NCBI RefSeq assembly: GCF_900240285.1
Contig: NZ_OESS01000003.1
Coordinates: 1 to 64,000, forward strand
DNA length: 64,000 bases
Reading direction: 5' to 3'
DNA from: Halobacillus sp. Marseille-P3879
GTDB taxonomy: Bacteria > Bacillota > Bacilli > Bacillales > Halobacillaceae
Within the stretch, counting starts at the first letter, position 1. Every line of letters starts with the position of its first letter. Under the pieces are notes generated by a model. It saw nothing but the letters and a program-made list of their open reading frames with translations. It was not told where the DNA came from and ran no database searches. This document shows positions 4,553 through 48,208 of the stretch, in pieces. The translations under genes were made by a program, and so were the position numbers.

Positions 4553-5095
4553 ATGCCAAGAGAATCGAAACGGCATAAAATTTTAGAAGCAGCTGCATTG
4601 ATTGTAAAAGAACAGGGCAGTGATGCTTTGACGTTGGATGCTGTAGCTAAAAGAGCACAAGTCAGCAAAGGAGGTCTCCTGTATCATTTTTCAACAAAAG
4701 AAGCTCTGGTGGAAGGGCTCGTACAGCACATGAACGATATCTACCGCGGGAATGTGGAGGAGCTTGTTGAGAAAGACGATGGAGAGACAGGGAAATGGGC
4801 GAGATCGTTTATCAACGTCATGCATGCGAAAAGTGTGGAAAACGAAACGATCAGTGCCGGCATGTTGGCAGCTCAGGGGATAAATCCCAAACTGCTTAAA
4901 CCATTACAGGATACATATGCAGATTGGCAGAATCATATTGAACACGACGGAATTGATCAAGTGGATGCGACAATTCTGCGTCTTGCTGTGGATGGCTTGT
5001 GGTTATCTGAAATTTTTGGTCTTGGTCCCTTGAATCCGAGTCTTAGGAAAAAAGTGCTTGAGCGGTTAACGGACCAAACGCATCCCACGGATTAA
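4553..5095 (+). CDS. TetR/AcrR family transcriptional regulator
   Basis: This 180-residue protein has an N-terminal TetR helix-turn-helix (KILEAAALIVKEQG, then LTLDAVAKRAQVSKGGLLYHF) at residues 10-50 and a C-terminal ligand domain of the TetR_C_6/YcdC-like kind. GAGGGAAGAAC precedes the ATG. The gene stands alone between the DnaA-box cluster and csbD, with no efflux pump beside it, so its target is unknown. It may regulate itself. Confidence 0.85.
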   Translation: MPRESKRHKILEAAALIVKEQGSDALTLDAVAKRAQVSKGGLLYHFSTKEALVEGLVQHMNDIYRGNVEELVEKDDGETGKWARSFINVMHAKSVENETISAGMLAAQGINPKLLKPLQDTYADWQNHIEHDGIDQVDATILRLAVDGLWLSEIFGLGPLNPSLRKKVLERLTDQTHPTD

Positions 5096-35732: not shown

Positions 35733-35774
35733 AAAAGAACCGCAAGCTTCTATTCGGAAGCTTGCGGTTCTTTT
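35733..35774. terminator. Bidirectional terminator symporter / lysR
   Basis: A perfect 18-bp stem AAAAGAACCGCAAGCTTC / GAAGCTTGCGGTTCTTTT with a 6-base loop. The right arm overlaps the last codons of lysR. Confidence 0.9.
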
Positions 35775-36691
35775 ATGTCAGGAATGGGTGTTACATTTAG
35801 ATTTTCATTGAATTGGTCTTTTATTCTCTGAATAAACCGTTCAGAAGCTTTTGATAGATAGCGACCTTTATGCCAGATCAACACAGACTCAGCTTTGATG
35901 TTAATATCAGCAAATTGATAACTCTTCAGGTTACTGAAACTAAAAGCATGCAGAGTAGACGCGGGCACAATGGTGGCTCCCATCCCGCTTGAAACTAAAG
36001 AAAGGAGCATTGTTGGTTCTGGACATTCACAAACAATGCGAGGTTCTATCCCATGCGCTTGGATCTCATCCAAGATGAGCTCAAATTGGCCTTCCCCTTT
36101 AAGTCGGTGAAGCAGCATTAAAGGTATGTCTGTTAAGATATCAAACTCTACATATTCGCCGCTATGATCGAGTTCCCATGAATCCGGGACCACAAGGACA
36201 TATGGTTCGGAAGGTAACGGAAAAATATCAAAATTTTCGGATTGTAAAGGTAAACGTACTACACCTAACTCAATCTCTCTGTTTCGAATCGCTTCTTCAA
36301 GGAAATAGGTATCGCCTTCACGAAGCTGATAAGTAATATTAGGATAATCAAGTGTAAACTGGCCGAAAACGGAACTCACAAAGGAAAAACATGTTTTGTT
36401 GGTCCCTATGTTTATCTTTCCTTGAACCCCTTCACTGGTTTCTTGAACTTCAGTCATAGATTCTTCAAATAAAGCTATTATATCTCCAGCTTTTTTATAA
36501 AGAATCTCTCCAGCTTTCGTCAATTCCAGCTTTCGACCTTGTCGATCAAATAATTTCATCTGTAATTCTTCTTCCATTAACTTAATTTGTTGACTTAAGG
36601 GTGGTTGAGACATATGTAGTTTTTCTGCCGCTTTGGTTACTTGTTTTTCCTCGGCTACAGTACGAAAGTAGCGTAACTGCTTGAGATCCAA
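35750..36691 (-). CDS. LysR family regulator of the 4-hydroxyphenylacetate cluster
   Basis: A 313-residue LysR-type regulator. The N-terminal helix-turn-helix is QVTKAAEKLHMSQPPLSQQI (residues about 18-40). The co-inducer domain begins near 90 (GKINIGTNKTCFSFVSSVFG). TTG 36691 is chosen because AAAGGTGG lies 8 bases upstream and the protein then starts MDLKQLRYFRTVAE, the usual LysR beginning; GTG 36703 has no ribosome-binding site. It is divergent from hpaE. An AT-rich dyad between them recurs before hpaG1, which suggests that it controls both operons. Confidence 0.9.
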   Translation of the reverse strand: MDLKQLRYFRTVAEEKQVTKAAEKLHMSQPPLSQQIKLMEEELQMKLFDRQGRKLELTKAGEILYKKAGDIIALFEESMTEVQETSEGVQGKINIGTNKTCFSFVSSVFGQFTLDYPNITYQLREGDTYFLEEAIRNREIELGVVRLPLQSENFDIFPLPSEPYVLVVPDSWELDHSGEYVEFDILTDIPLMLLHRLKGEGQFELILDEIQAHGIEPRIVCECPEPTMLLSLVSSGMGATIVPASTLHAFSFSNLKSYQFADINIKAESVLIWHKGRYLSKASERFIQRIKDQFNENLNVTPIPDIKEPQASE

Positions 36692-36740
36692 CGTGATTTC
36701 CACCTTTCTAACATATATCTAAAATATATAGTAAATAGAT

Positions 36741-36886: not shown

Positions 36887-38407
36887 ATGAGTAATGTCAA
36901 TGTCGTACATAAAGTACGTCAAGAACTCCAAGAAAAAGTGAAAGATGTCAAATTATATATTGATGGAAAGTTCATAGTTGCTGAATCAAATGAACAATTT
37001 GACAATATCGAACCGTTCACCAATGCAAGAATTAACTCAGTTGCTTCTGGTGCAAGAACCGATATTGATAAGGCAGCTAAGGCAGCTAGAAAAGCATTTA
37101 AAGGGGAATGGGGAGGCTTACCGCAACAACAACGATTGGATTATATATATAAGATTGCCGATTCCATTGATCGCCACGTAGAAGAGCTGGCTCACCTGGA
37201 ATCTTATGACACTGGATTGCCAATCTTCCTGACGAAAAAAATGGTAAGTCGTGCTTCTAAGAATTTCCGCTTTTATGCGGAAATGGTTTCCAGTCAAATG
37301 TACGGAGATGCCTATCAGGTTGACGATGAATTTTTAAACTATACCATTCGCAAACCAGTTGGTATTGCTGGTTTGATCACTCCATGGAATGCACCTTTCA
37401 TGCTAGAAACTTGGAAAATAGCGCCCGCACTAGCAACCGGAAATACGGTGATCCTTAAGCCAGCGGAATGGTCGCCACTAACGGCGAACAAACTGGCGGA
37501 AATCATTGACGAAGAAGTCGATCTACCGGATGGCGTTTTCAATGTTGTCCACGGCTACGGAGAGACCGCCGGAGCTTCCCTGGTAGCTCATGAGGATGTC
37601 GAGCTCATTTCCTTTACTGGGGAAACGACTACAGGCTCAGAGATCATGAAAAATGGAGCGGATTCACTGAAACGTTTTTCCATGGAGCTTGGGGGAAAAT
37701 CGCCGATTATCATATTCGATGATGCGGATTTAGACAGGGCTTTGGATGCCTGTACATGGGGGATATTCTCTTTCAACGGAGAACGGTGTACGGCGAATTC
37801 AAGATTATATGTCCATGAAGATATTGCTGAAGATTTTGTCAAAGCATTAAAAGAAAGGATAAGCAATATCAAAGTAGGCGATCCATTGGATGAAAAAACC
37901 GAAGTCGGACCGTTGATCCATACCAATCATTATAAAAACGTTAAAGGGTACATCGAACTAGCGGAACAGGAAGGATGCGAAGTCTTTCAAGGAAATGTTC
38001 CTGAAGAGCACAGTCAAGGTAATTATATTCCGCCTACGATTCTATTGAACGCTGATAATTCCATGAGAGTAGTTCAGGAAGAGGTTTTTGGTCCAGTACT
38101 TACAGTTATGACTTTCAAAGAGGAAGAGGAAGTTATTGAAAAGGCAAATGATGTCCGTTACGGATTGGCTGGTTATGTTTGGACGAAAGACATCCAACGG
38201 GGCCATCGGGTATCACAAGCGGTAGATGCCGGTATGCTCTGGATCAATTCACAGAATGTTCGGGATCTGCGCACACCGTTTGGTGGTTCTAAGCATAGTG
38301 GAATTGGCCGTGAAGGCGGTTACTACGCTTTTGAATTCTATACCGAAATGCAAGTCATTCACGTAGCTATTGGAGAACACAGAATTCCACAATTCGGTAA
38401 AAATTAA
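36887..38407 (+). CDS. hpaE: 5-carboxymethyl-2-hydroxymuconate semialdehyde dehydrogenase
   Basis: An ALDH-superfamily enzyme of 506 residues that oxidises the ring-cleavage product of homoprotocatechuate with NAD. It shows LITPWNAPFMLETWKIAPAL, SFTGETTTGSEIM, the catalytic glutamate in FSMELGGKSP near residue 270, the cysteine in FNGERCTANSR near 304 (typical of HpaE), and EEVFGPVLTVM. GGAGGAAG precedes the ATG. It is the first gene of hpaE-hpaB-hpaD-hpaC-ribF-like-dapA-like, with gaps of 10-40 bases. Confidence 0.92.
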   Translation: MSNVNVVHKVRQELQEKVKDVKLYIDGKFIVAESNEQFDNIEPFTNARINSVASGARTDIDKAAKAARKAFKGEWGGLPQQQRLDYIYKIADSIDRHVEELAHLESYDTGLPIFLTKKMVSRASKNFRFYAEMVSSQMYGDAYQVDDEFLNYTIRKPVGIAGLITPWNAPFMLETWKIAPALATGNTVILKPAEWSPLTANKLAEIIDEEVDLPDGVFNVVHGYGETAGASLVAHEDVELISFTGETTTGSEIMKNGADSLKRFSMELGGKSPIIIFDDADLDRALDACTWGIFSFNGERCTANSRLYVHEDIAEDFVKALKERISNIKVGDPLDEKTEVGPLIHTNHYKNVKGYIELAEQEGCEVFQGNVPEEHSQGNYIPPTILLNADNSMRVVQEEVFGPVLTVMTFKEEEEVIEKANDVRYGLAGYVWTKDIQRGHRVSQAVDAGMLWINSQNVRDLRTPFGGSKHSGIGREGGYYAFEFYTEMQVIHVAIGEHRIPQFGKN

Positions 38408-38428: not shown

Positions 38429-39904
38429 ATGCCAGCAAAAACAGGTGCTGAGTACATTGAACGATTGAAAAAAGCGAAAAACAACATTTACATTCATGGA
38501 GAAAGAGTAGAAGATCCAACCAGCCATCCTGCGTTTAAAAACGTGATTCAATCCATGTCTAAGTTATATGATCGACAATATGAAAAGCCAGATAAAATGC
38601 TTTACACTTCCCCTCAAACTGGGGATAAGGTGGGGATGACTTTTCACCGACCAGAGACGGTTGAAGACTTGATCAACAGAAGAGAAGCTATCCAAGAGTG
38701 GGCGAGAATTTCCGGTGGTATGATGGGACGTACCCCAGATTATTTGAACGCCGAAGTCATGGCAATGGGTGTAGCAAATAACTTGTTTGCAGAAGCTGAT
38801 CCAATGTTCGCTGAAAATGCGAAAAACTACTATGACTATGCTCGAGAAAATGATGTTAGTTTAACGCATACGTTAATCCATCCTCAAGTAAACCGACAAA
38901 AAGCACAGCATGAGCAAAAAGATGCAAACGTTGCTTTGCATTTGGTAGAGGAACGATCCGACGGAATTATCGTGGATGGTGCTCGACTCCTGGCTACGCA
39001 GGGTGGCATCACAGATGAAATTCTAGTTTTTCCTTCAACCGTGAAAAAAGCAGGCGAGCTGGATGACCCGTACTCTCTAGCATTCGTCGTACCAAACAAC
39101 ACACCTGGGTTGAAATATATCAGCCGTGAATCGTTTGACTACGGTAAAAACGAATGGGATCACCCAATGAGCAGCCGATTCGAAGAAGGAGACTCCATCG
39201 TTTATTTTGATAACGTTTTCGTACCTTGGGAGAAAGTATTTGTATGCGGAAACTCATCTATCTGTAATCGGACTTTCTTAGAAACGAACGCTGTTGTGCA
39301 TATGTCCCACCAGGTAGTCGCTAAGAACATTGTTAAAACGGAATTCGTACTCGGGGTTATCTTGAGTGTCATGGATGCTATCGGTATTGATAAGTTCCAA
39401 CATGTGATGGATAAAGGAACGGAAGTTATGTTGATTCTCGAAAATATGAAATCCCATCTATACAAGGCTGAACATAACGCAAAACTAGATAAATGGGGAA
39501 CGATGACCCCAGACTTTGAAGCATTGAATGCCGCAAGAAATTGGTATCCGAGAGTCTACCCTAGAATTACAGAAATTCTACGTATTTTAGGTGCTTCTGG
39601 ATTGATGGGTATTCCATCAGAAGCAGATTTTCACCATGAAGAAATCGGTCCACTGCTAGATCGAGCTTTACAGGCCAAAAATCTTCAAGGTTATGACCGG
39701 GTTAAGCTTTTCCGTTTAGCGTGGGATATAACGATGAGTGCTTTCGGAAGCAGACAAACGCACTATGAATACTACTTCTTTGGTGATCCAATTAAAATGG
39801 GAATGACTTATTTTGAACAATTTGATAAAGAGCCGATGAAAGCGTATGCACAGGATTTTTTGAAGAATATCAAGTCGTCTAAACCAGATCTTTCAAGAGT
39901 GTGA
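38429..39904 (+). CDS. hpaB: 4-hydroxyphenylacetate 3-monooxygenase, oxygenase component
   Basis: HpaB hydroxylates 4-hydroxyphenylacetate to 3,4-dihydroxyphenylacetate with FADH2 supplied by HpaC. The 491-residue product starts GAEYIERLKKAKNNIYIHGE and contains SGGMMGRTPDYLNA near residue 93, LTHTLIHPQVNR near 140, the flavin/substrate loop LLATQGGITDEILVFPS and MSSRFEEGDSIVYFDNVFVPWE, all typical. AAGGAGGAA precedes the ATG. Its stop overlaps the hpaD leader. Related 4-hydroxybenzoate or phenol hydroxylases share this fold, but the neighbours fix the role. Confidence 0.94.
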   Translation: MPAKTGAEYIERLKKAKNNIYIHGERVEDPTSHPAFKNVIQSMSKLYDRQYEKPDKMLYTSPQTGDKVGMTFHRPETVEDLINRREAIQEWARISGGMMGRTPDYLNAEVMAMGVANNLFAEADPMFAENAKNYYDYARENDVSLTHTLIHPQVNRQKAQHEQKDANVALHLVEERSDGIIVDGARLLATQGGITDEILVFPSTVKKAGELDDPYSLAFVVPNNTPGLKYISRESFDYGKNEWDHPMSSRFEEGDSIVYFDNVFVPWEKVFVCGNSSICNRTFLETNAVVHMSHQVVAKNIVKTEFVLGVILSVMDAIGIDKFQHVMDKGTEVMLILENMKSHLYKAEHNAKLDKWGTMTPDFEALNAARNWYPRVYPRITEILRILGASGLMGIPSEADFHHEEIGPLLDRALQAKNLQGYDRVKLFRLAWDITMSAFGSRQTHYEYYFFGDPIKMGMTYFEQFDKEPMKAYAQDFLKNIKSSKPDLSRV

Positions 39905-39915
39905 GGAGGAAAAAT

Positions 39916-40896
39916 ATGAGCTTTGACATTATTCGTTCAGGTAGAGCCGTGCTCCATGTAACCGACCTAGAAGAATCAAAGAAATTTTATGATGCCCTGG
40001 GGTTTATTGTAACTGAAGAATCGGACACAGAACTTTATTTACGTGGGTTGGAAGAACATAACCATCATAGTTTGCTGCTTAAGAAAAAAGAATCTCCGAT
40101 ACTTGAAGTCATCAGTTATAAAGTGAGGACAGATGACGATTTAGATCAATTAGCTGCTAAACTCGAGCAGGATGGTAACCAAATTAAATGGCTTGACAAA
40201 GGAACACAAAAAGCATTGGGAAGAGCGTTCCGCTATCAAGATATTTCCGGTTTACCCGTCGAATTTTATGTAGAAATGGATACAGTAGAAAGAAAACTTC
40301 AACAATATCAACTTTATAAAGGGGCAAAAGTCCAGCGTATTGATCATTTTAACTGCATGGTATCTGATGTAGAACAAGCCCATGATTACTATATTGAAGA
40401 ACTAGGTTATGCTTGCTCAGAATACACGGCCGGTGAAGAAGATAAAATTTGGGCGGCATGGCTTCATCGAAAACCAAGCGTTCACGACGTCGCTTTCATG
40501 AATGGTCCCGGACCTAGACTCCACCATATTGGGTTCTGGTTGAACGATCCAATGAGCTTGATCCATGGATGTGATGTTCTAGCTTCTCTTGGCTATAGTC
40601 CGAATATTGAAAGAGGTCCAGGCCGGCACGGACTGTCCAATGCTTTCTTCCTTTATTTACGCGATCCGGATGGACATCGAATTGAGCTATATAATGGAGA
40701 TTATTTCACCGGGGATCCAGATTCCAAACCTCTACGCTGGGAACTGGATGACCCTATGAGGCAAACGTTCTGGGGACATGAAGCACCAGATAGCTGGTTT
40801 GATGAAGCCACAGAAGTATTGAATGTTTACACGAATGAAAAAGTTGAAACTAAGGAAGCCAAGTTAAAGAAAAGAAAACCGACGTTTGTCATTTAA
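39916..40896 (+). CDS. hpaD: 3,4-dihydroxyphenylacetate 2,3-dioxygenase (VOC type)
   Basis: A type I extradiol dioxygenase of 326 residues with two vicinal-oxygen-chelate domains. The first covers about residues 1-125 (AVLHVTDLEESKKFYDALGF). The catalytic second domain carries the three metal ligands: His in RIDHFNCMVSD near 142, His in PRLHHIGFWL near 203 and Glu in DPDGHRIELYNGDY near 255. Iron or manganese binding is expected. ATG 39916 with GAGGAGGAAAA upstream is preferred. It opens the ring between hydroxylation by HpaB and oxidation by HpaE. Confidence 0.92.
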   Translation: MSFDIIRSGRAVLHVTDLEESKKFYDALGFIVTEESDTELYLRGLEEHNHHSLLLKKKESPILEVISYKVRTDDDLDQLAAKLEQDGNQIKWLDKGTQKALGRAFRYQDISGLPVEFYVEMDTVERKLQQYQLYKGAKVQRIDHFNCMVSDVEQAHDYYIEELGYACSEYTAGEEDKIWAAWLHRKPSVHDVAFMNGPGPRLHHIGFWLNDPMSLIHGCDVLASLGYSPNIERGPGRHGLSNAFFLYLRDPDGHRIELYNGDYFTGDPDSKPLRWELDDPMRQTFWGHEAPDSWFDEATEVLNVYTNEKVETKEAKLKKRKPTFVI

Positions 40897-40934
40897 CGAA
40901 TGGATATCAAAAAAACAAATAAGAGGTGATCAAG

Positions 40935-41393
40935 ATGGACGATCGCATGTTCAGATCGGCAATGGGTAAATTCGCTACAGGAGTCACTGTCATTGCCTCG
41001 GAATCAAATGGAGAAACACACGGAATGACCGCTAATGCTTTTATGTCTGTATCTTTGGACCCTAAATTGGTATTGATATCTGTAGGATCCAACGCGAAAA
41101 TGAACAAGGTCATTCAAGAATCTCAAAAGTTCACGGTAAATGTTTTATCTGGAACCCAGAAAGAAATGTCTATGATATTTGCTGGCCAAATCAAACAAGA
41201 GCAAGAGGTAGACTTTGGACTTTTTGAGGGAATGCCGATCATTGAAGATTCGTTAGTAAGCTTAGCTTGCAATGTTTATGATACACATGAAGCGGGTGAT
41301 CATACCCTTTACATCGGGGAAGTAATCAACCTGAATCTTAAAGATGGTGAACCTTTAGCGTTTTTCGAAGGAAAGTATAAACAAGTGATGTAA
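40935..41393 (+). CDS. hpaC: Flavin reductase, HpaC component
   Basis: A short-chain NAD(P)H:flavin reductase of 152 residues (Flavin_Reduct domain). It has FRSAMGKFATGVTVIAS, THGMTANAFMSVSLDPKLVLISV and KFTVNVLSGTQKEMS, then DHTLYIGEVINL. It supplies reduced flavin to HpaB. ATG 40935 follows AAGAGGTGATC. It lies 38 bases after hpaD and 25 before the FAD-synthetase-like gene. Confidence 0.9.
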   Translation: MDDRMFRSAMGKFATGVTVIASESNGETHGMTANAFMSVSLDPKLVLISVGSNAKMNKVIQESQKFTVNVLSGTQKEMSMIFAGQIKQEQEVDFGLFEGMPIIEDSLVSLACNVYDTHEAGDHTLYIGEVINLNLKDGEPLAFFEGKYKQVM

Positions 41394-41418
41394 AACTATT
41401 ACAGAGGAGGGACGGAAC

Positions 41419-42294
41419 TTGAAGACGATTAAAGTAGATTACCCTATACAAAATAACGTGAGGAAGAATAAAGAAGATTGTGTGATAGCCTTAGGTTTCT
41501 TTGATGGAGTGCATTTGGGTCATCAGAAAATTATACAGACTGCCAAAAAAATAGCTGCCAATAATAATTTAAAGTTAGCCGTGATGACTTTTTTTCCTCA
41601 TCCCTCTTCTGTAATAAAAAAAGGAAAACAAATCACAAGCTATCTTACTCCATTGGCCGTAAAAGAGAAAAGGTTCAAAGAGCTGGGTGTCGATATCATG
41701 TATGTAGTCGAATTCAATGAAAAGGTAGCAAAGATCCCTCATTATAAATTCGTCGATGACTACCTATGTGGATTGTCTTGCAAACATGCGGTAGCTGGAT
41801 TTGATTATAAGTATGGGTTCAAAGGAAAAGGAGACATGGCACAACTTCCTATCGATAGTAAAGGGAGGTTCGAAGTCACTACTGTGTCTAAACTCTCGAT
41901 GTACGAACAAAAAGTAAGTTCAACTTTACTTCGGAGTTTTCTGTCTACTGGAAAGGTAGAAAATATCCCTGATTACTTGGGAGACCGCTATAAAATGCTA
42001 GGAACCATGATAGGGAGGGGCAAAGAGATCGCATTTTATTTTGACCCCGATTACTCCCTCCCTTGCATGGGAACCTATGAAGTGACTATTTCCACTAGCA
42101 ATATGGAAGCCAAAGGGTTTTGTGAAGTGGATATGAATGCGTTACCAGGAAAACTGCTCGTCACTCTTTTCCATGATTCCATCATAGGATCTTATGAGAT
42201 TGTCGAGCTTAATTGGAATAACTTTATTGCAGATTTACAAATGAATGAGCTTCACGCTCAAACCGATTTTAACCATATGTATGTCAGTCAATGA
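41419..42294 (+). CDS. RibF-like FAD synthetase without a recognisable riboflavin-kinase motif
   Basis: This 291-residue protein carries the FMN adenylyltransferase domain of RibF. The nucleotidyltransferase loop is GFFDGVHLGHQKI near residue 28, followed by FFPHPSSV, GFDYKYGFKGKGD near 125 and SSTLLRSFLSTGKVE near 160. The usual RibF riboflavin-kinase domain should show GRxxGxPTANI after that; here the segment reads GTMIGRGKEIAFYFD with no PTAN, so kinase activity is doubtful. The start is TTG with GAGGAGG upstream. Within the FAD-dependent hydroxylase operon it probably makes FAD from FMN for HpaB and HpaC. Confidence 0.82.
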   Translation: MKTIKVDYPIQNNVRKNKEDCVIALGFFDGVHLGHQKIIQTAKKIAANNNLKLAVMTFFPHPSSVIKKGKQITSYLTPLAVKEKRFKELGVDIMYVVEFNEKVAKIPHYKFVDDYLCGLSCKHAVAGFDYKYGFKGKGDMAQLPIDSKGRFEVTTVSKLSMYEQKVSSTLLRSFLSTGKVENIPDYLGDRYKMLGTMIGRGKEIAFYFDPDYSLPCMGTYEVTISTSNMEAKGFCEVDMNALPGKLLVTLFHDSIIGSYEIVELNWNNFIADLQMNELHAQTDFNHMYVSQ

Positions 42295-42328: not shown

Positions 42329-43249
42329 ATGGCAAGAGATTATACGGAAATCAAATCTAGATTAAGAGGTTCTATCACCCCTGTTATTACACCATTTAAA
42401 GCAAACCATGATGTGGATTTAGATAAATTCGCGGAATTGATTGAATTTCAATTGGAGAATGGTACCCATGGTATCTCCGTCACAGGTACTTCAGGCGAAC
42501 CTAGTTCCTTAAGTGTTGAAGAAAGAGAACAAGTAATGCAAAAAGCGATTAAAACAATCAATGGGCGAGTCCCTTTCGTACCCGGAACCGGGTCTACCAA
42601 TCACGAGGAAACCATGCGCTTAACGAAAAAGGCTGAGGCGCTGGGTGCAGATGCTGCTATGGTCATCGTACCGTATTATAATAAACCTAACCAACAAGCA
42701 TTATATAAACATTTTAAAACAGTGGCTGATGCGGTTGATATCCCGATTATCATCTATAATATTCCAGGGCGTACCGCGACCAACCTTCATGTCGATACTT
42801 TGGCTAAACTGAATGAGGATTGCCCGAACATTATTGGTGTTAAAGAGTCAAATAAGGACTTTGAACATGTCAATCGTGTACTGCAGCGATGTGGCAAGGA
42901 TTTTCTCCTATTATCAGGAATTGAACTCCTCTGTTACCCAATGCTTACGATTGGAGGTGTAGGATCCGTCAGTGCTACAGCGAATGTTTTGCCTGGTAAA
43001 GTGGCACAAATGCATGATGCTTGGTTCGATGGAGATGTGGAAACCGCACAAAATCTCCACTATGAGCTCATGGAATTGAACGATGTCTTGTTCAAAGATA
43101 CCAACCCAGCCCCGGTGAAAGCAGCACTCGGCATGATGGGAAGAATCGAACCTGTTTTAAGACTCCCAATGGACCTGCCATCACAAGAATTGCAGGATGA
43201 AATCCAACAAACTTTAGAGAAATATGGTATTGCCTTGCAATACGCTTAA
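42329..43249 (+). CDS. DapA-family aldolase, probably pathway aldolase (HpaI role)
   Basis: A TIM-barrel N-acetylneuraminate lyase/DapA family protein of 306 residues. The pyruvate-binding loop is VTGTSGEPSSLS near residue 48, the tyrosine is in IIIYNIPGRTATNL near 138, and the Schiff-base lysine is in IIGVKESNKD near 167. In this operon it is well placed to split 2,4-dihydroxyhept-2-enedioate into pyruvate and succinate semialdehyde, a near relative of the pyruvate plus aspartate-semialdehyde chemistry of DapA. No classical HpaI is present. It could still be a biosynthetic DapA. GAGGAGGAA precedes the ATG. Confidence 0.82.
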   Translation: MARDYTEIKSRLRGSITPVITPFKANHDVDLDKFAELIEFQLENGTHGISVTGTSGEPSSLSVEEREQVMQKAIKTINGRVPFVPGTGSTNHEETMRLTKKAEALGADAAMVIVPYYNKPNQQALYKHFKTVADAVDIPIIIYNIPGRTATNLHVDTLAKLNEDCPNIIGVKESNKDFEHVNRVLQRCGKDFLLLSGIELLCYPMLTIGGVGSVSATANVLPGKVAQMHDAWFDGDVETAQNLHYELMELNDVLFKDTNPAPVKAALGMMGRIEPVLRLPMDLPSQELQDEIQQTLEKYGIALQYA

Positions 43250-43964: not shown

Positions 43965-45443
43965 TTAAAAAGGATATTCAAGCTTTTCCTTCTGCACTGA
44001 TATCCATTTTGTTGTGGTGAATTCCTCGACAACCCAATCATGACCAAAACGGCCAATACCGCTATTCTTAACACCCCCGAAGGGAACATTGCTTTCTAAA
44101 ACTGCAGGCATATCGTTTACATGGGTTGTACCTGCTTCAATTTCGAGTGCTAAACGTTCACCTTTTTGGATATCATTCGTAACAATTGCTGCTGAAAGAC
44201 CGAATTCTGTATCATTTGCGATACGGATGGCATCATCATCATCTTCAGCAATAATAATTTGAGCAACAGGACCGAAAACCTCCGTAGAAGCAAGTGTGGA
44301 GTCATTGGAAACATTGGTAAAGACAAATGGAGAAATTACATTTCCATTACGCGCACCTTCGACTGCAACTGTTAATCCTTCCTCTTTTGCTTTTTCTACT
44401 ATTCCCATGATTTTATCGGCTTGTTTATTATTGATAACAGGTCCGATCACTGTTGCAGGATCTTTTGGATCGCCTACTTTGAGTGATTTTACTCGTTCTA
44501 CATATTTCTCTAGAAAAGCATCATATATTCCCTGATGAACAATAATTCGATTTGTGATTGCACAAATTTGACCATTATGCATGAATTTACCGAATATGGC
44601 AATATCTACAGCCTGATCGATATTTGCATCTTCCAAAATTACCAATGGGTTATTTCCACCTAGTTCCAGAGCCATTTGTTTCATTGTGTTTCCAGTTTTT
44701 TCTCTAATATGCTGGCCAACAGCAGTAGAACCGGTGAAACTGATAAAGTCTGAATTTGGGTTGATGATAAATTCGTCTCCTGATTCTTCCGTGTCTGTCA
44801 AAATCGAATTGAATACACCAGCAGGGAGTCCTGCTTCCTCAAGTGCTTTCGCGAAAATCTGTCCTCCAACGAGACCAACCTGAATATCTGGTTTATGCAC
44901 TACAGCATTTCCTAAAGCTAAGGCGGGAAAAATCGTTCTGGTAGCCATATTAAATGGAAAGTTAAAAGGTGTAATCGAAGTAATCACACCTAGAGGCAGG
45001 CGGTAAACACGATTCACCTTGCCTGGTGTATTGGAAGAATATTCTTTCGGAGCATAGATTTTTTCTACCATCGGGATAGCATCATTAATGTCACTGATAC
45101 CGAAACCGAATTCTACTTCCCCTTTTAATGCTGTTCCGCCAGTTTCGCGGATAACCAACTGTATAATATCTTCTTTATTTTCTTCCAAAAAGTTCAATGC
45201 TTTAGTTAAAACTTCTCTTCTTTCCTCAGCACTAGTTCTTGCCCATTCTTTCTGAGCTTTATTTGCTGTTTCAAAAGCATTCCTTATTTGCTCTTTATTT
45301 GCTAATTTAACCGTAGATACCGTTGAGTGATCATACGGGTCTTTAATCTCGTAATCTCTGCCGCTTTTTCCGTCTACCCATTGCCCTCCAATGTAGCTTT
45401 TGTTTATTTGATCTAGTAAAGAGATATCTAATGTTTTTGGCAT
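43965..45443 (-). CDS. Aldehyde dehydrogenase (YfmT/vanillin dehydrogenase-like)
   Basis: A 492-residue ALDH-superfamily enzyme. It has SITPFNFPFNMATRTIFPAL, FTGSTAVGQHI, the catalytic glutamate in MALELGGNNP and the cysteine in HNGQICAITNR (the asparagine-glycine-glutamine-isoleucine form found in benzaldehyde/vanillin-type enzymes), then EVFGPVAQII. ATG 45443 with GGAGGT upstream is chosen over a longer start. It is followed upstream by the iron alcohol dehydrogenase on the same strand, so an alcohol-aldehyde-acid route is likely. The aldehyde is unknown; aromatic aldehydes fit the island. Confidence 0.85.
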   Translation of the reverse strand: MPKTLDISLLDQINKSYIGGQWVDGKSGRDYEIKDPYDHSTVSTVKLANKEQIRNAFETANKAQKEWARTSAEERREVLTKALNFLEENKEDIIQLVIRETGGTALKGEVEFGFGISDINDAIPMVEKIYAPKEYSSNTPGKVNRVYRLPLGVITSITPFNFPFNMATRTIFPALALGNAVVHKPDIQVGLVGGQIFAKALEEAGLPAGVFNSILTDTEESGDEFIINPNSDFISFTGSTAVGQHIREKTGNTMKQMALELGGNNPLVILEDANIDQAVDIAIFGKFMHNGQICAITNRIIVHQGIYDAFLEKYVERVKSLKVGDPKDPATVIGPVINNKQADKIMGIVEKAKEEGLTVAVEGARNGNVISPFVFTNVSNDSTLASTEVFGPVAQIIIAEDDDDAIRIANDTEFGLSAAIVTNDIQKGERLALEIEAGTTHVNDMPAVLESNVPFGGVKNSGIGRFGHDWVVEEFTTTKWISVQKEKLEYPF

Positions 45444-45623
45444 GTAATCTACCTCCAAATATAGTAAAATGACGAATCTGAACATTCCCCTTAAATCGAC
45501 CTCATTACTTTAGCAACTTGTTCGATGGATGATTTCTTTATTCTTATAAGGCATTAATAAAATCCTGAACTATGCTACCAATTATTACTTTCAATAGCAG
45601 TGTTTCTATCCAACCCTATTTTC

Positions 45624-46829
45624 TTATTTTCTTAAGGGACTTTGTACATATTTTAAATCCTTAACATCCGAACCAACGTAAGCGGTTTCAATAAGGTCTA
45701 AAATATCTTCTTTTGAAACGTCTGTAGGGTTAGCCATGATACTTATTTCTTCGTTTAATGTTGCCTCAGCTAAAATATCAAATTGGTCTCTCCTTACTCC
45801 AGCCTCACTTAACGTGGGGATATGCACTTGTTCGGCTAAGGATTTAACTGCTTCAATGGCCTTGTAAGAAGCTTCCGCATCAGATAGATTATTTACTTCG
45901 ATTCCCATGTGTCTTGCAATATCTCTATGTCGATATTGGACATGCTCATCTGTTGCGTTGAATGCCATTACATAAGGCAAAGTAGAAGCATTTGCTACCC
46001 CGTGGGGAAGACCACAATATACACTTAATGGATGGGCAATCGCATGCACTACTCCAAGTAAGGCTGAATTAAAGGCGTATGCAGCTAGCATACTACCAAG
46101 CATCATATTATGGCGGGCTTCTAAATTATTGCCATTTTTATATGCTTCAACTAGATTATTAGAAATAAGTTCGATGGCTTTTAAGGCATTCACATCACTT
46201 GGTACGGAGGCAAATTTGGAAACATAAGCTTCAATTGCATGTGTTAGCGCGTCCATACCTGTTGCTGCTGTGATGGAAGGAGGTAATGCAATCGTGAGTT
46301 CTGGATCCACTAGTGCAATATCTGCTCCACAGTGACGACCGCCAATAACCATTTTCCTTTTCTTTTCTGTGTCTGTGATAACAGTAATAGAAGTTGCTTC
46401 ACTTCTGGTCCCTGCAGTTGTGGGAATGGCAATTAATGGTTTTGTCTGATTCTTTACCATATTGATTCCATCATATTGATTAATTGGACCAGGGTTCGTT
46501 AGTAGAATATTAATTGCTTTTGCAACATCAATCGAACTCCCTCCACCAATAGCAACGATTCCATCTACTTCTTCATTTCTACCTAATTTTGCTCCTTCAT
46601 TCAAAATTGTATCAGGCGGATTTGGTACCACTTTTGAAAAGGAAACTGTTTCTACTTGGTTTTCTTCCATATAGGACTTCACTTTGTCAACAATCCCCGC
46701 TTGCTCAACGCCTTGGTCATAGATAAGCAAAACTTTTGTTGCTGATAATTCACTTAATACTTGACCAATATTTTTAACAGCCCCATTCCCAAAAGTTACT
46801 TGACAAGGAATACCAAATTGAAATTGCAT
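45624..46829 (-). CDS. Iron-containing alcohol dehydrogenase
   Basis: A group III (Fe-ADH) enzyme of 401 residues. The N-terminal NAD domain has GGGSSIDVAKAI near residue 95 and PTTAGTRSEAT (usually GTGSE; arginine replaces glycine here). The metal ligands are the Asp in DPELT near 195 and the histidines in MDALTHAIEAY, VHAIAHPLS and GLPHGVANA. AAAGGGG precedes the ATG. It lies 180 bases upstream of the aldehyde dehydrogenase on the same strand, perhaps in one transcript. Confidence 0.9.
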   Translation of the reverse strand: MQFQFGIPCQVTFGNGAVKNIGQVLSELSATKVLLIYDQGVEQAGIVDKVKSYMEENQVETVSFSKVVPNPPDTILNEGAKLGRNEEVDGIVAIGGGSSIDVAKAINILLTNPGPINQYDGINMVKNQTKPLIAIPTTAGTRSEATSITVITDTEKKRKMVIGGRHCGADIALVDPELTIALPPSITAATGMDALTHAIEAYVSKFASVPSDVNALKAIELISNNLVEAYKNGNNLEARHNMMLGSMLAAYAFNSALLGVVHAIAHPLSVYCGLPHGVANASTLPYVMAFNATDEHVQYRHRDIARHMGIEVNNLSDAEASYKAIEAVKSLAEQVHIPTLSEAGVRRDQFDILAEATLNEEISIMANPTDVSKEDILDLIETAYVGSDVKDLKYVQSPLRK

Positions 46830-47449
46830 CTTTATTCCCCTTTCGTATAAATTAATATTTTATTTTTATAAATCTGCACAGACCTAATATTTCGATTCTT
46901 CTTCCCTTAAAAAATGTCATATGGGAATGAAACTAAACTTCTCCTTTCTAACCATAGAACACCAGTTCAAATAATTCTTCTGTTAAATACGATTGCAAGC
47001 CCTTACATTTCGATGTATTCATACTAATGGTCAGTACATTTTAGGGTTAATAAGGTCTTTCACCATAGATATTTTAAAAATTTTTTAAAGAGGGATCGAG
47101 AGTAACTGGAGTATCTCATAGACTTTTAAAATATGGTTATTTCGGATGATTAAATGGAATTTGGAATGTTAAATTTTGAAACTGGTGTCTCAGCTCTAAA
47201 ATTGTCTATAGCATATGGGGGAAGCACTTCACTTAAATCAGCATTTTAATTTCCTAATTTTCAGAAGTGACTGATATTAATCTAACACTCTTGAAGGCAT
47301 AATTAAAATATATATAATGTTCGTTTTTTATATGAAAAACGTATACGACAGGTCAACACTCAAATTTATCTGTAGTTGAATTAGCAATAAATATATAAAT
47401 TTGATGGAAAGAATACAAAACTTTCATCTTTCCCATTCAGTATGTTGGT
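46830..47449. other. Non-coding gap between Fe-ADH and the LuxR gene
   Basis: A 620-base, very AT-rich stretch. I find no gene, RNA or clear operator. The promoter of the Fe-ADH/ALDH unit must lie in its left part. Confidence 0.5.
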
Positions 47450-48208
47450 TTAGATGGAATTCAGTTTAAAAAGAAGACCTGATCGATTATTCACATCGAA
47501 CTTTTGGTAGAGGCTACGGATATGTTTTTTTACTGTATTAACACTAATAAAGAGATTCTCTCCAATTTCTTTGTTGGAATAACCTTGCCGAATAAGTTTT
47601 AATACTTCTATCTCCCGGTCGGTTAAATTATATTCTGCATTTTTGAATGCGTTTTCAAAATTATCCGTATAAAACCTATCATTCAATTTTTGGGCTATAC
47701 ATCTAGAAAGTATTTCTAGAGTCATTTGTTCACTTTCATCTATAATTCCTTCATTTTTTTCATTTTTTTCGGAAACAAAGTCTACTAATCCGATTATATT
47801 CTTGTTTTTGACCAAGAATATCCCTGTATTGTTGTAGAAGCCGTATTTTTTCATGAAGCTATTATAATATTCGCTGTTTTCGTATTCTTTTTTGGATTGA
47901 ATGTCAAGCAGGCTTATAACTCTTCGTTTCGGTATCCAATGTTGCGATAGTTTGTGAGGAACTAAATGGTCCATATCCATGTAATTATTTAGGTAATCTT
48001 TCGTAATAGACTGATTTGTATTTAAAGTAATGGGATCATATAATTGATTGTTTTCATCACAAAACCAGAAATTCAATTGGTGGAATCCAAACCAATGTTC
48101 AAATGCTAATAATACTTCTTTTCGGAAATTTTCGTTAATAATTGAGATCTCGTCCATAAACCCAAGTACTTTTTTATACTTATCGTCACTCAAAAAATGA
48201 GAGACCAT
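47450..48208 (-). CDS. LuxR-type transcriptional regulator
   Basis: A 252-residue protein with a C-terminal LuxR helix-turn-helix, NLTDREIEVLKLIRQGYSNK followed by EIGENLFISVNTVKKHIR, at about residues 190-240. The N-terminal 180 residues resemble a GAF/PAS-like sensor (GIFLVKNKNIIGLVDFVSEK) with no phosphoacceptor aspartate pattern of a response regulator. AAGGAGG precedes the ATG. It is divergent from the amine oxidase operon and may control it, or the Fe-ADH/ALDH unit on its own strand. Codon use is markedly AT-rich. Confidence 0.85.
   Translation of the reverse strand: MVSHFLSDDKYKKVLGFMDEISIINENFRKEVLLAFEHWFGFHQLNFWFCDENNQLYDPITLNTNQSITKDYLNNYMDMDHLVPHKLSQHWIPKRRVISLLDIQSKKEYENSEYYNSFMKKYGFYNNTGIFLVKNKNIIGLVDFVSEKNEKNEGIIDESEQMTLEILSRCIAQKLNDRFYTDNFENAFKNAEYNLTDREIEVLKLIRQGYSNKEIGENLFISVNTVKKHIRSLYQKFDVNNRSGLLFKLNSI

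Follow-up and report, generated by a model that had tools for sequence, protein, structure and literature searches.

A kinase-less FAD synthetase gene in a 4-hydroxyphenylacetate operon of Halobacillus and its probable role in FAD supply to the hydroxylase

Cofactor synthesis is usually regarded as a housekeeping function. Why, then, does a gene for an apparent FAD synthetase lie inside an operon for the breakdown of 4-hydroxyphenylacetate, and what would such an enzyme do there? The question arises from the gene at positions 41419 to 42294 (plus strand) of the window, by which we mean the whole 64,000-nucleotide stretch of Halobacillus sp. Marseille-P3879 DNA that was analyzed. The open reading frame list, profile matches, and alignments indicate that it encodes a kinase-less FAD synthetase (FMN adenylyltransferase by sequence) of 291 amino acids, read from a TTG start.

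The surrounding genes identify the pathway. On the plus strand, hpaE (semialdehyde dehydrogenase, 36887 to 38407; TIGR02299, 797.5 bits), hpaB (oxygenase component of 4-hydroxyphenylacetate 3-hydroxylase, 38429 to 39904; TIGR02309, 773 bits), hpaD (3,4-dihydroxyphenylacetate 2,3-dioxygenase, 39901 to 40896; TIGR02295, 435.6 bits), and the gene for an HpaI-type aldolase of the DapA family (42329 to 43249; TIGR02313, 498 bits) all score above the NCBIfam cutoffs, as expected of a homoprotocatechuate (hpa) operon. An hpaC-type flavin reductase gene (40926 to 41393, plus strand; PF01613) precedes the synthetase gene. Its product matched Flavin_Reduct at 131.8 bits and the best HpaC model at 132.4 bits against a cutoff of 200; since it falls under every HpaC cutoff, the name HpaC rests on position. 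HpaB-type hydroxylases are FADH2 dependent, and the free FADH2 is supplied by a separate reductase. The gaps from hpaE to the aldolase gene are 21, -4, 29, 25, and 34 bp. An earlier note, made from the letters of the window, had placed the synthetase gene in the same operon as the hydroxylase, with 25 bp separating it from hpaC upstream and 34 bp from the aldolase gene downstream; the measured gaps are identical, and the position of the gene among the hpa genes is borne out by the profile scores and by the gene order conserved in close orthologues (see below). The only terminator-like match on the plus strand lies inside hpaC, among seven matches in total compared to 5.9 expected. The genes may be cotranscribed. 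No RNA element, riboswitches included, was detected near the operon with Rfam models; between 30000 and 50000 there were four weak matches, all below gathering scores. A regulator gene, labeled LysR type from its sequence without a profile, is divergent from the operon (35750 to 36703, minus strand), and its homologues are also divergent from hpa operons. Downstream, at 43965-48208 on the minus strand, genes for an aldehyde dehydrogenase, an Fe-alcohol dehydrogenase, and a LuxR-type regulator make up a separate set.

The adenylyltransferase (FMNAT) half of the protein retains its characteristic residues. A Shine-Dalgarno-like sequence, GAGGAGGGA (41404 to 41412, plus strand), judged to be a good ribosome site, lies upstream of the TTG start. 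The FMNAT module (41464 to 41925, plus strand; residues 16 to 169) matches Pfam FAD_syn (PF06574) at 161.5 bits against a cutoff of 27. Its three motifs are intact in the alignment, in agreement with the earlier claim that all FMNAT motifs of RibF are retained: the nucleotide-binding HxGH motif as GFFDGVHLGH (41494 to 41523), the loop N/D motif within AGFDYKYGFKGKGD (41794 to 41835), and the SSTxxR motif as SSTLLR (41917 to 41934), all on the plus strand. The RibF equivalog models matched only below their cutoffs and within residues 1 to 245; for instance, TIGR00083 gave 136.1 bits, below its cutoff of 184.35. The histidines of HxGH are essential in CaFADS (PMC3509593). In alignments of RibF-type proteins from the fetched loci (72 sequences, later 96), all 57 operon-linked genes have both of these histidines, together with Asp in the AG-F/Y-D loop and the Ser of the SSTxxR-type motif. 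A few of these genes have Gly in place of the preceding Ser or Lys in place of the final Arg of the SSTxxR-type motif, and one (L166) reads GFFDSVHLGH in the HxGH region. The window protein has Asp at the position of CaFADS Asn125, where the N125D change abolishes the activity of CaFADS (PMC3509593). However, Asp is also present at this position in 26 of 27 bifunctional Bacillota proteins, in Escherichia coli RibF, and in the pneumococcal FADS structure 3op1, and the residue is therefore a lineage difference. The FMNAT half is clearly constrained and under purifying selection, with dN/dS values of 0.06 to 0.23 in the seven of eight close pairs that gave a value. AlphaFold2 modeling of the window protein with one relative (L091) yielded a mean pLDDT of 39.8.

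The second half is different. Alignment and HHalign mark a decayed riboflavin kinase barrel at 41989 to 42234 (plus strand), with the PTAN loop missing, the module end shortened, and Leu in place of the Glu of E-V-H, a residue which we take to be catalytic in the bifunctional relatives. The PTAN part of the kinase loop, a substrate-binding motif (PMC2972280), is gone, and Flavokinase (PF01687) is absent among the Pfam matches of the window protein at an E value of ≤1. The protein thus lacks the PF01687 match with G-x-PTAN and Glu that marks a bifunctional (type I) RibF. Neither PTAN nor its Asn occurs in any of the 57 operon-linked genes; in the aligned kinase columns, the Thr is found in 11 of them and the E-V-H Glu in 8, and the window protein has neither. 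Among 27 bifunctional relatives, by comparison, the Thr and the Glu are present in all 27 and the Asn in 26. Profiles of the C-module, cut just after the SST motif, still match the riboflavin kinase barrel with an HHalign probability of 99.4%, and the alignment shows a gap at the G-x-PTAN loop. The C-module is less constrained than the FMNAT half, with dN/dS values of 0.07 to 0.83 across eight close pairs, and is nearly free in the pair at 0.83. The kinase therefore looks dead while its barrel is retained. The earlier note had called the G-x-PTAN segment degenerate and the kinase apparently missing. The first point stands, and no intact kinase site was found in the C-terminal half by motifs or by PF01687; the second holds for the motifs and the profile match, but not for the half itself, which persists as a recognizable decayed barrel. 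A C-terminal tail, W-N-N-F-I-A-D...H-A-Q (42214 to 42261, plus strand), is kept among the close hpa-type orthologues and is a possible docking site.

Operon-linked genes are not the only ones without the kinase motifs. These are also lost or weakened in eight RibF proteins of family members, encoded at truB-type loci (L045, L046, L034, L035, L054, L055, L031, and L024), although L024 still gives a flavokinase match. All of the genomes concerned have a strong flavokinase match elsewhere.

How regularly does the gene accompany the pathway? A close orthologue is present in 15 of 44 genomes of the family, including that of the window, the others being 58 to 69% identical (E < 1e-110). In all 14 close orthologues from the 43 other genomes, the order HpaE-B-D-C-RibF-HpaI is identical. 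Nineteen strong HpaB loci (>765 bits) were found in 18 family genomes, and 15 of them carry the synthetase gene. The remaining four are otherwise collinear from HpaE to HpaI. One locus, L043, has between hpaC and hpaI (4893-5009) a 39-residue relic of the synthetase tail (38% identity, E value of 3e-5), which points to secondary loss of the gene. A synthetase relic is also seen at L183 (12083-12238), an hpa locus without an intact gene in view. The window's own genome has a second hpa operon, HpaE-B-D-C-HpaI, from which the synthetase is absent (G000:C8:265844-271295; L041 5845-11296), and this operon offers a natural control inside one cell. The same genome encodes two further FAD synthetases, both with flavokinase. 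All 44 family genomes have a Flavokinase match well above the cutoff, and none of the 19 operon-linked family genes, i.e., the 15 close orthologues and four shorter ones (G029, G040, and G042), is among these matches.

Beyond the family, a synthetase-type gene lies within 12 kb at no fewer than 24 of 87 HpaB loci (≥690 bits) in an order-level sample of 397 genomes; this is a lower bound, based on the short-frame entries among the matches listed, and 5 of the 24 loci belong to the window's own family. One extra synthetase locus (L184) was found among the 20 loci read of the 63 that remained. A profile search at the level of the phylum (E ≤ 1e-70) matched in 9 of 398 genomes, only two of which, G591 and G665, are outside the order. 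Both group with bifunctional RibF, the G591 protein (L150) despite having no PTAN match. A scan of named genomes with the single protein gave one locus, in Thalassobacillus cyri. The synthetase is thus a frequent but optional part of hpa loci. The earlier note had asked whether the gene is absent from related hpa operons, which it is not, and had called the arrangement unusual; that description does not suit the family, where most hpa loci have the gene, but agrees with its optional occurrence across the order.

The operon-linked genes also share a history. In a tree of the FMNAT module, 43 of them form one clade (99/93) apart from bifunctional RibF. When more genes were added and one long branch was left out, 56 linked genes formed one clade (97/85) with L168 as its sister (96/92). 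The window protein groups with these genes of aromatic-hydroxylase operons and apart from type I RibF. Most clade loci are hpa operons or phenol-type meta operons, the latter with genes for an HpaB-like hydroxylase, a reductase, a catechol 2,3-dioxygenase-like protein, acetaldehyde dehydrogenase, and a DmpG-type aldolase; a few (L159 to L161 and L163) have another arrangement. Some clade genes are on named plasmids of Peribacillus asahii and Priestia aryabhattai.

Gene neighborhoods were tallied at 58 loci. Fifty-seven were chosen on the basis of sequence score and frame length; L184, found via its context, was omitted from this set. An HpaB-family gene is in view at 52 and a reductase gene at 47 of the 57 loci, and at least one of HpaB, reductase, and ring-cleavage dioxygenase is in view at 56 of them, or at 53 of 54 without L036 to L038, where a nearby HpaB hit had already been noticed before fetching. 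The sole exception is L168. By comparison, neither HpaB nor HpaC was seen at nine contrast RibF loci of at least 12 kb, located at truB-type or other places (L040, L045, L046, L047, L052 to L055, and L115). At 44 of the 58 loci, the synthetase gene is no more than 70 bp from a flavin reductase gene of the same strand; it directly follows the reductase gene at 39 of these loci, whereas it overlaps the reductase gene or lies on its other side at 5. A reductase gene was not seen at 10 of 58 loci, a count that is uncertain because the picking of nonoverlapping reading frames missed overlapping genes such as the L184 reductase. A strict pairing of HpaC with RibF was rejected in view of these 10 loci. 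The clade-type gene at L168 (4906-12086), where hpa genes are absent, is near genes for an acyl-CoA-dehydrogenase-fold protein, a putative cyclase, an ammonium transporter, and a heme-dependent oxidative N-demethylase-like protein. Our guess is that the acyl-CoA-dehydrogenase-fold protein might be a group D flavin monooxygenase.

Parallel cases exist in other phyla. They were found by similarity and read selectively and show recurrence, not frequency. A plasmid search with clade members, from which 10 of 18 records of one search were read, gave two bifunctional genes and eight kinase-less FAD_syn genes, the eight forming one alphaproteobacterial clade; the alphaproteobacterial cases surfaced through plasmids only. 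An HpaB-family hydroxylase is in view at seven of the eight kinase-less genes. It lies 0.9 kb away in Thioclava, 2.5 kb away with a flavin reductase between in Aminobacter sp. MSH1, 5.7 kb away in Sinorhizobium sp. RAC02, and about 5.3 kb away, on the opposite strand and with two LysR-type genes between, on four Paracoccus plasmids; none is in view at the Neorhizobium gene. On a plasmid of Cupriavidus oxalaticus X32, the kinase-less gene (L210) adjoins genes for a LysR-type protein, a flavin reductase, an HpaB-family hydroxylase, and a chlorocatechol-type dioxygenase. Catabolic plasmids of Pseudarthrobacter chlorophenolicus A6 and Arthrobacter sp. YC-RL1 each carry a gene annotated as FMN adenylyltransferase, with no HpaB-family gene in view. 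Nearby genes encode a single-component FAD-dependent ring hydroxylase and a maleylacetate reductase in the former and an intradiol dioxygenase and a flavin reductase in the latter. A multi-phylum tree places the Bacillota operon genes (100/97) inside Bacillota RibF (100/99) and the alphaproteobacterial genes in a separate clade (100/99); the two arthrobacterial genes have as their sister an Arthrobacter RibF from a truB locus, which retains GFPTAN (98/90). The deep branches are weak, and the Cupriavidus gene has no firm place. Operon-linked kinase-less synthetases likely had at least three separate origins by this tree, which does not support a single origin for all of them.

The best explanation, and in our judgment a probable one, is that the gene encodes a pathway-dedicated FMN adenylyltransferase that would convert FMN to FAD for the operon's hydroxylase. 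A bifunctional Bacillota RibF would have been duplicated, one copy would have retained the barrel without the riboflavin kinase site, and this copy would then have become fixed in operons of FADH2-dependent aromatic hydroxylases. The other RibF proteins of the cell would supply FMN. Upon induction of the operon, the synthetase, which we infer to be catalytically active, would make FAD from FMN when free FAD is required by HpaC and HpaB; cofactor supply would rise together with the enzyme that uses FAD, presumably to the benefit of the hydroxylase. The proposal of the earlier note that the pathway has its own FAD supply fits well with the motif loss, the conserved position in 14 of 14 orthologues, the clade, and the flavokinase encoded elsewhere in all 44 family genomes. 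However, some observations go against a dedicated role. The gene is missing from 4 of the 19 family hpa loci and, as far as seen, from most hpaB loci of the order sample; L168 is a clade-type locus without such neighbors; and kinase loss occurs at the truB-type locus as well.

A specific form of this explanation is that HpaC reduces FMN, the synthetase adenylylates the FMNH2, and FADH2 goes straight to HpaB. Such use of HpaC-derived FMNH2, with release of FADH2, is plausible but more speculative, and we regard the whole sequence of steps as a tentative possibility. The pneumococcal FADS adenylylates reduced FMN only, and early work cited in the same paper described Bacillus subtilis enzyme preparations specific for reduced flavins (PMC5548840). 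The spacing of 70 bp or less between 44 of 58 synthetase genes and a reductase gene is also as expected. However, CaFADS needs no flavin reduction (PMC5548840), and several loci, including L101, L162, L164, L165, and L167 among the 10 noted above, have no reductase gene in view. Somewhat more doubtful is a broader version, in which hydroxylase operons would repeatedly have evolved a module of reductase, kinase-less synthetase, and hydroxylase that converts FMNH2 directly to FADH2, with the dead barrel as a docking surface.

Other readings separate the gene from the hydroxylase. The synthetase could raise the general FAD pool with the operon as no more than a convenient promoter, and the kinase-degenerate RibF at the truB-type locus of several family members is in line with this; the presence of hydroxylase, reductase, or ring-cleavage genes at 56 of 57 clade-type loci makes it unlikely. 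A role other than FAD synthesis, such as FAD pyrophosphorolysis, FAD delivery, use of a different flavin or nucleotide substrate, or regulation, is suggested by the reverse reaction that FADS enzymes also catalyze (PMC3509593) and by the retained barrel, which may have a non-kinase use. It is quite improbable given that all 57 genes retain the residues needed to catalyze FAD synthesis and that the FMNAT module is under purifying selection. Even the kinase might be active in a divergent form, considering that the barrel is recognizable by HHalign, that variants of PTAN are tolerated elsewhere (PMC2972280), and that some linked genes, though not that of the window, keep the Thr (11 of 57) or the Glu (8 of 57). 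Yet PTAN or its Asn is found in none of the 57, and a Flavokinase match is absent from the window protein and all 19 linked family genes, so we consider this very improbable. Finally, a chance neighbor or a decaying duplicate with no role in the pathway would account for the many hpa loci where the gene was not seen and for the one pair of eight with a nearly free C-module (dN/dS of 0.83), but it is contradicted by the position kept in 14 of 14 orthologues, the clade, the selection on the FMNAT half, and the recurrence in other phyla, and is scarcely credible.

Kinase-less FAD synthetases as such are already known. Yruela et al. (2010) described "FADS-type II" proteins in Oceanobacillus, Listeria, Arthrobacter chlorophenolicus, and others, a type defined by sequence whose members do not make one class (PMC2972280). 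The window gene has the same features, i.e., FMNAT kept, PTAN lost, a shorter C-module, and a type I protein encoded elsewhere in the genome. However, its group forms a single supported clade with ties to hydroxylase operons, whereas type II is described without operon context in the accessible text of that paper (PMC2972280). Compared to the bifunctional type I enzymes (B. subtilis RibC, CaFADS, and SpnFADS), the window protein has the same FMNAT module, motifs, and two-module layout, but it has lost the PTAN loop, and its gene sits in an aromatic-catabolism operon and not in a truB-rpsO type of locus, as seen for Listeria. The Listeria monocytogenes FADS-II (L191; 246 amino acids, encoded beside glmS) is likewise short and kinase-less and is, we infer, the assayed LmFADSII, which makes FAD in vitro with reductant (PMC5548840). 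It is only 30% identical to the window protein, and it groups with the C5 bifunctional RibF of the window genome (100/99) and not with the hpa clade, which fits type II not being one class. The plant plastid proteins AtRibF1/2 also combine an adenylyltransferase module with a C-module in which kinase activity was undetected (PMC2972280), but they are eukaryotic and are likened here by description, not by sequence. The phe operon of Geobacillus stearothermophilus similarly joins a Bacillota two-component phenol hydroxylase to a meta pathway, but an FAD synthetase is absent from its ORF table (PMC2590616).

In the literature searched, the scope of which excluded supplements, preprints, and most subscription journals, we found no description of an FAD synthetase in aromatic-hydroxylase operons; in the accessible text of PMC5481743, FAD synthetase is named once, in the reference list. 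Within that searchable literature, the clade of operon-dedicated genes and the repeated recruitment appear to be novel. Here cofactor synthesis is built into a catabolic operon, with similar genes near operons of this kind in unrelated bacteria. For genes that carry only labels such as "FAD synthetase family protein," "FMN adenylyltransferase," or "hypothetical protein," this points to a function. According to a review, FADH2 availability strongly affects the activity of flavin-dependent monooxygenases in engineering, and raised FAD synthesis improves product yield with these enzymes (PMC10958861). The operon synthetases would be a natural, matched answer to FADH2 availability, and they make FAD limitation of free-flavin hydroxylases directly testable. 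Another flavin-linked context was observed on a plasmid of Ligilactobacillus acidipiscis, where a short FAD synthetase gene (L114, 7977-8819) lies between spxB (pyruvate oxidase) and the riboflavin genes (ribD, riboflavin synthase, ribA, and ribH).
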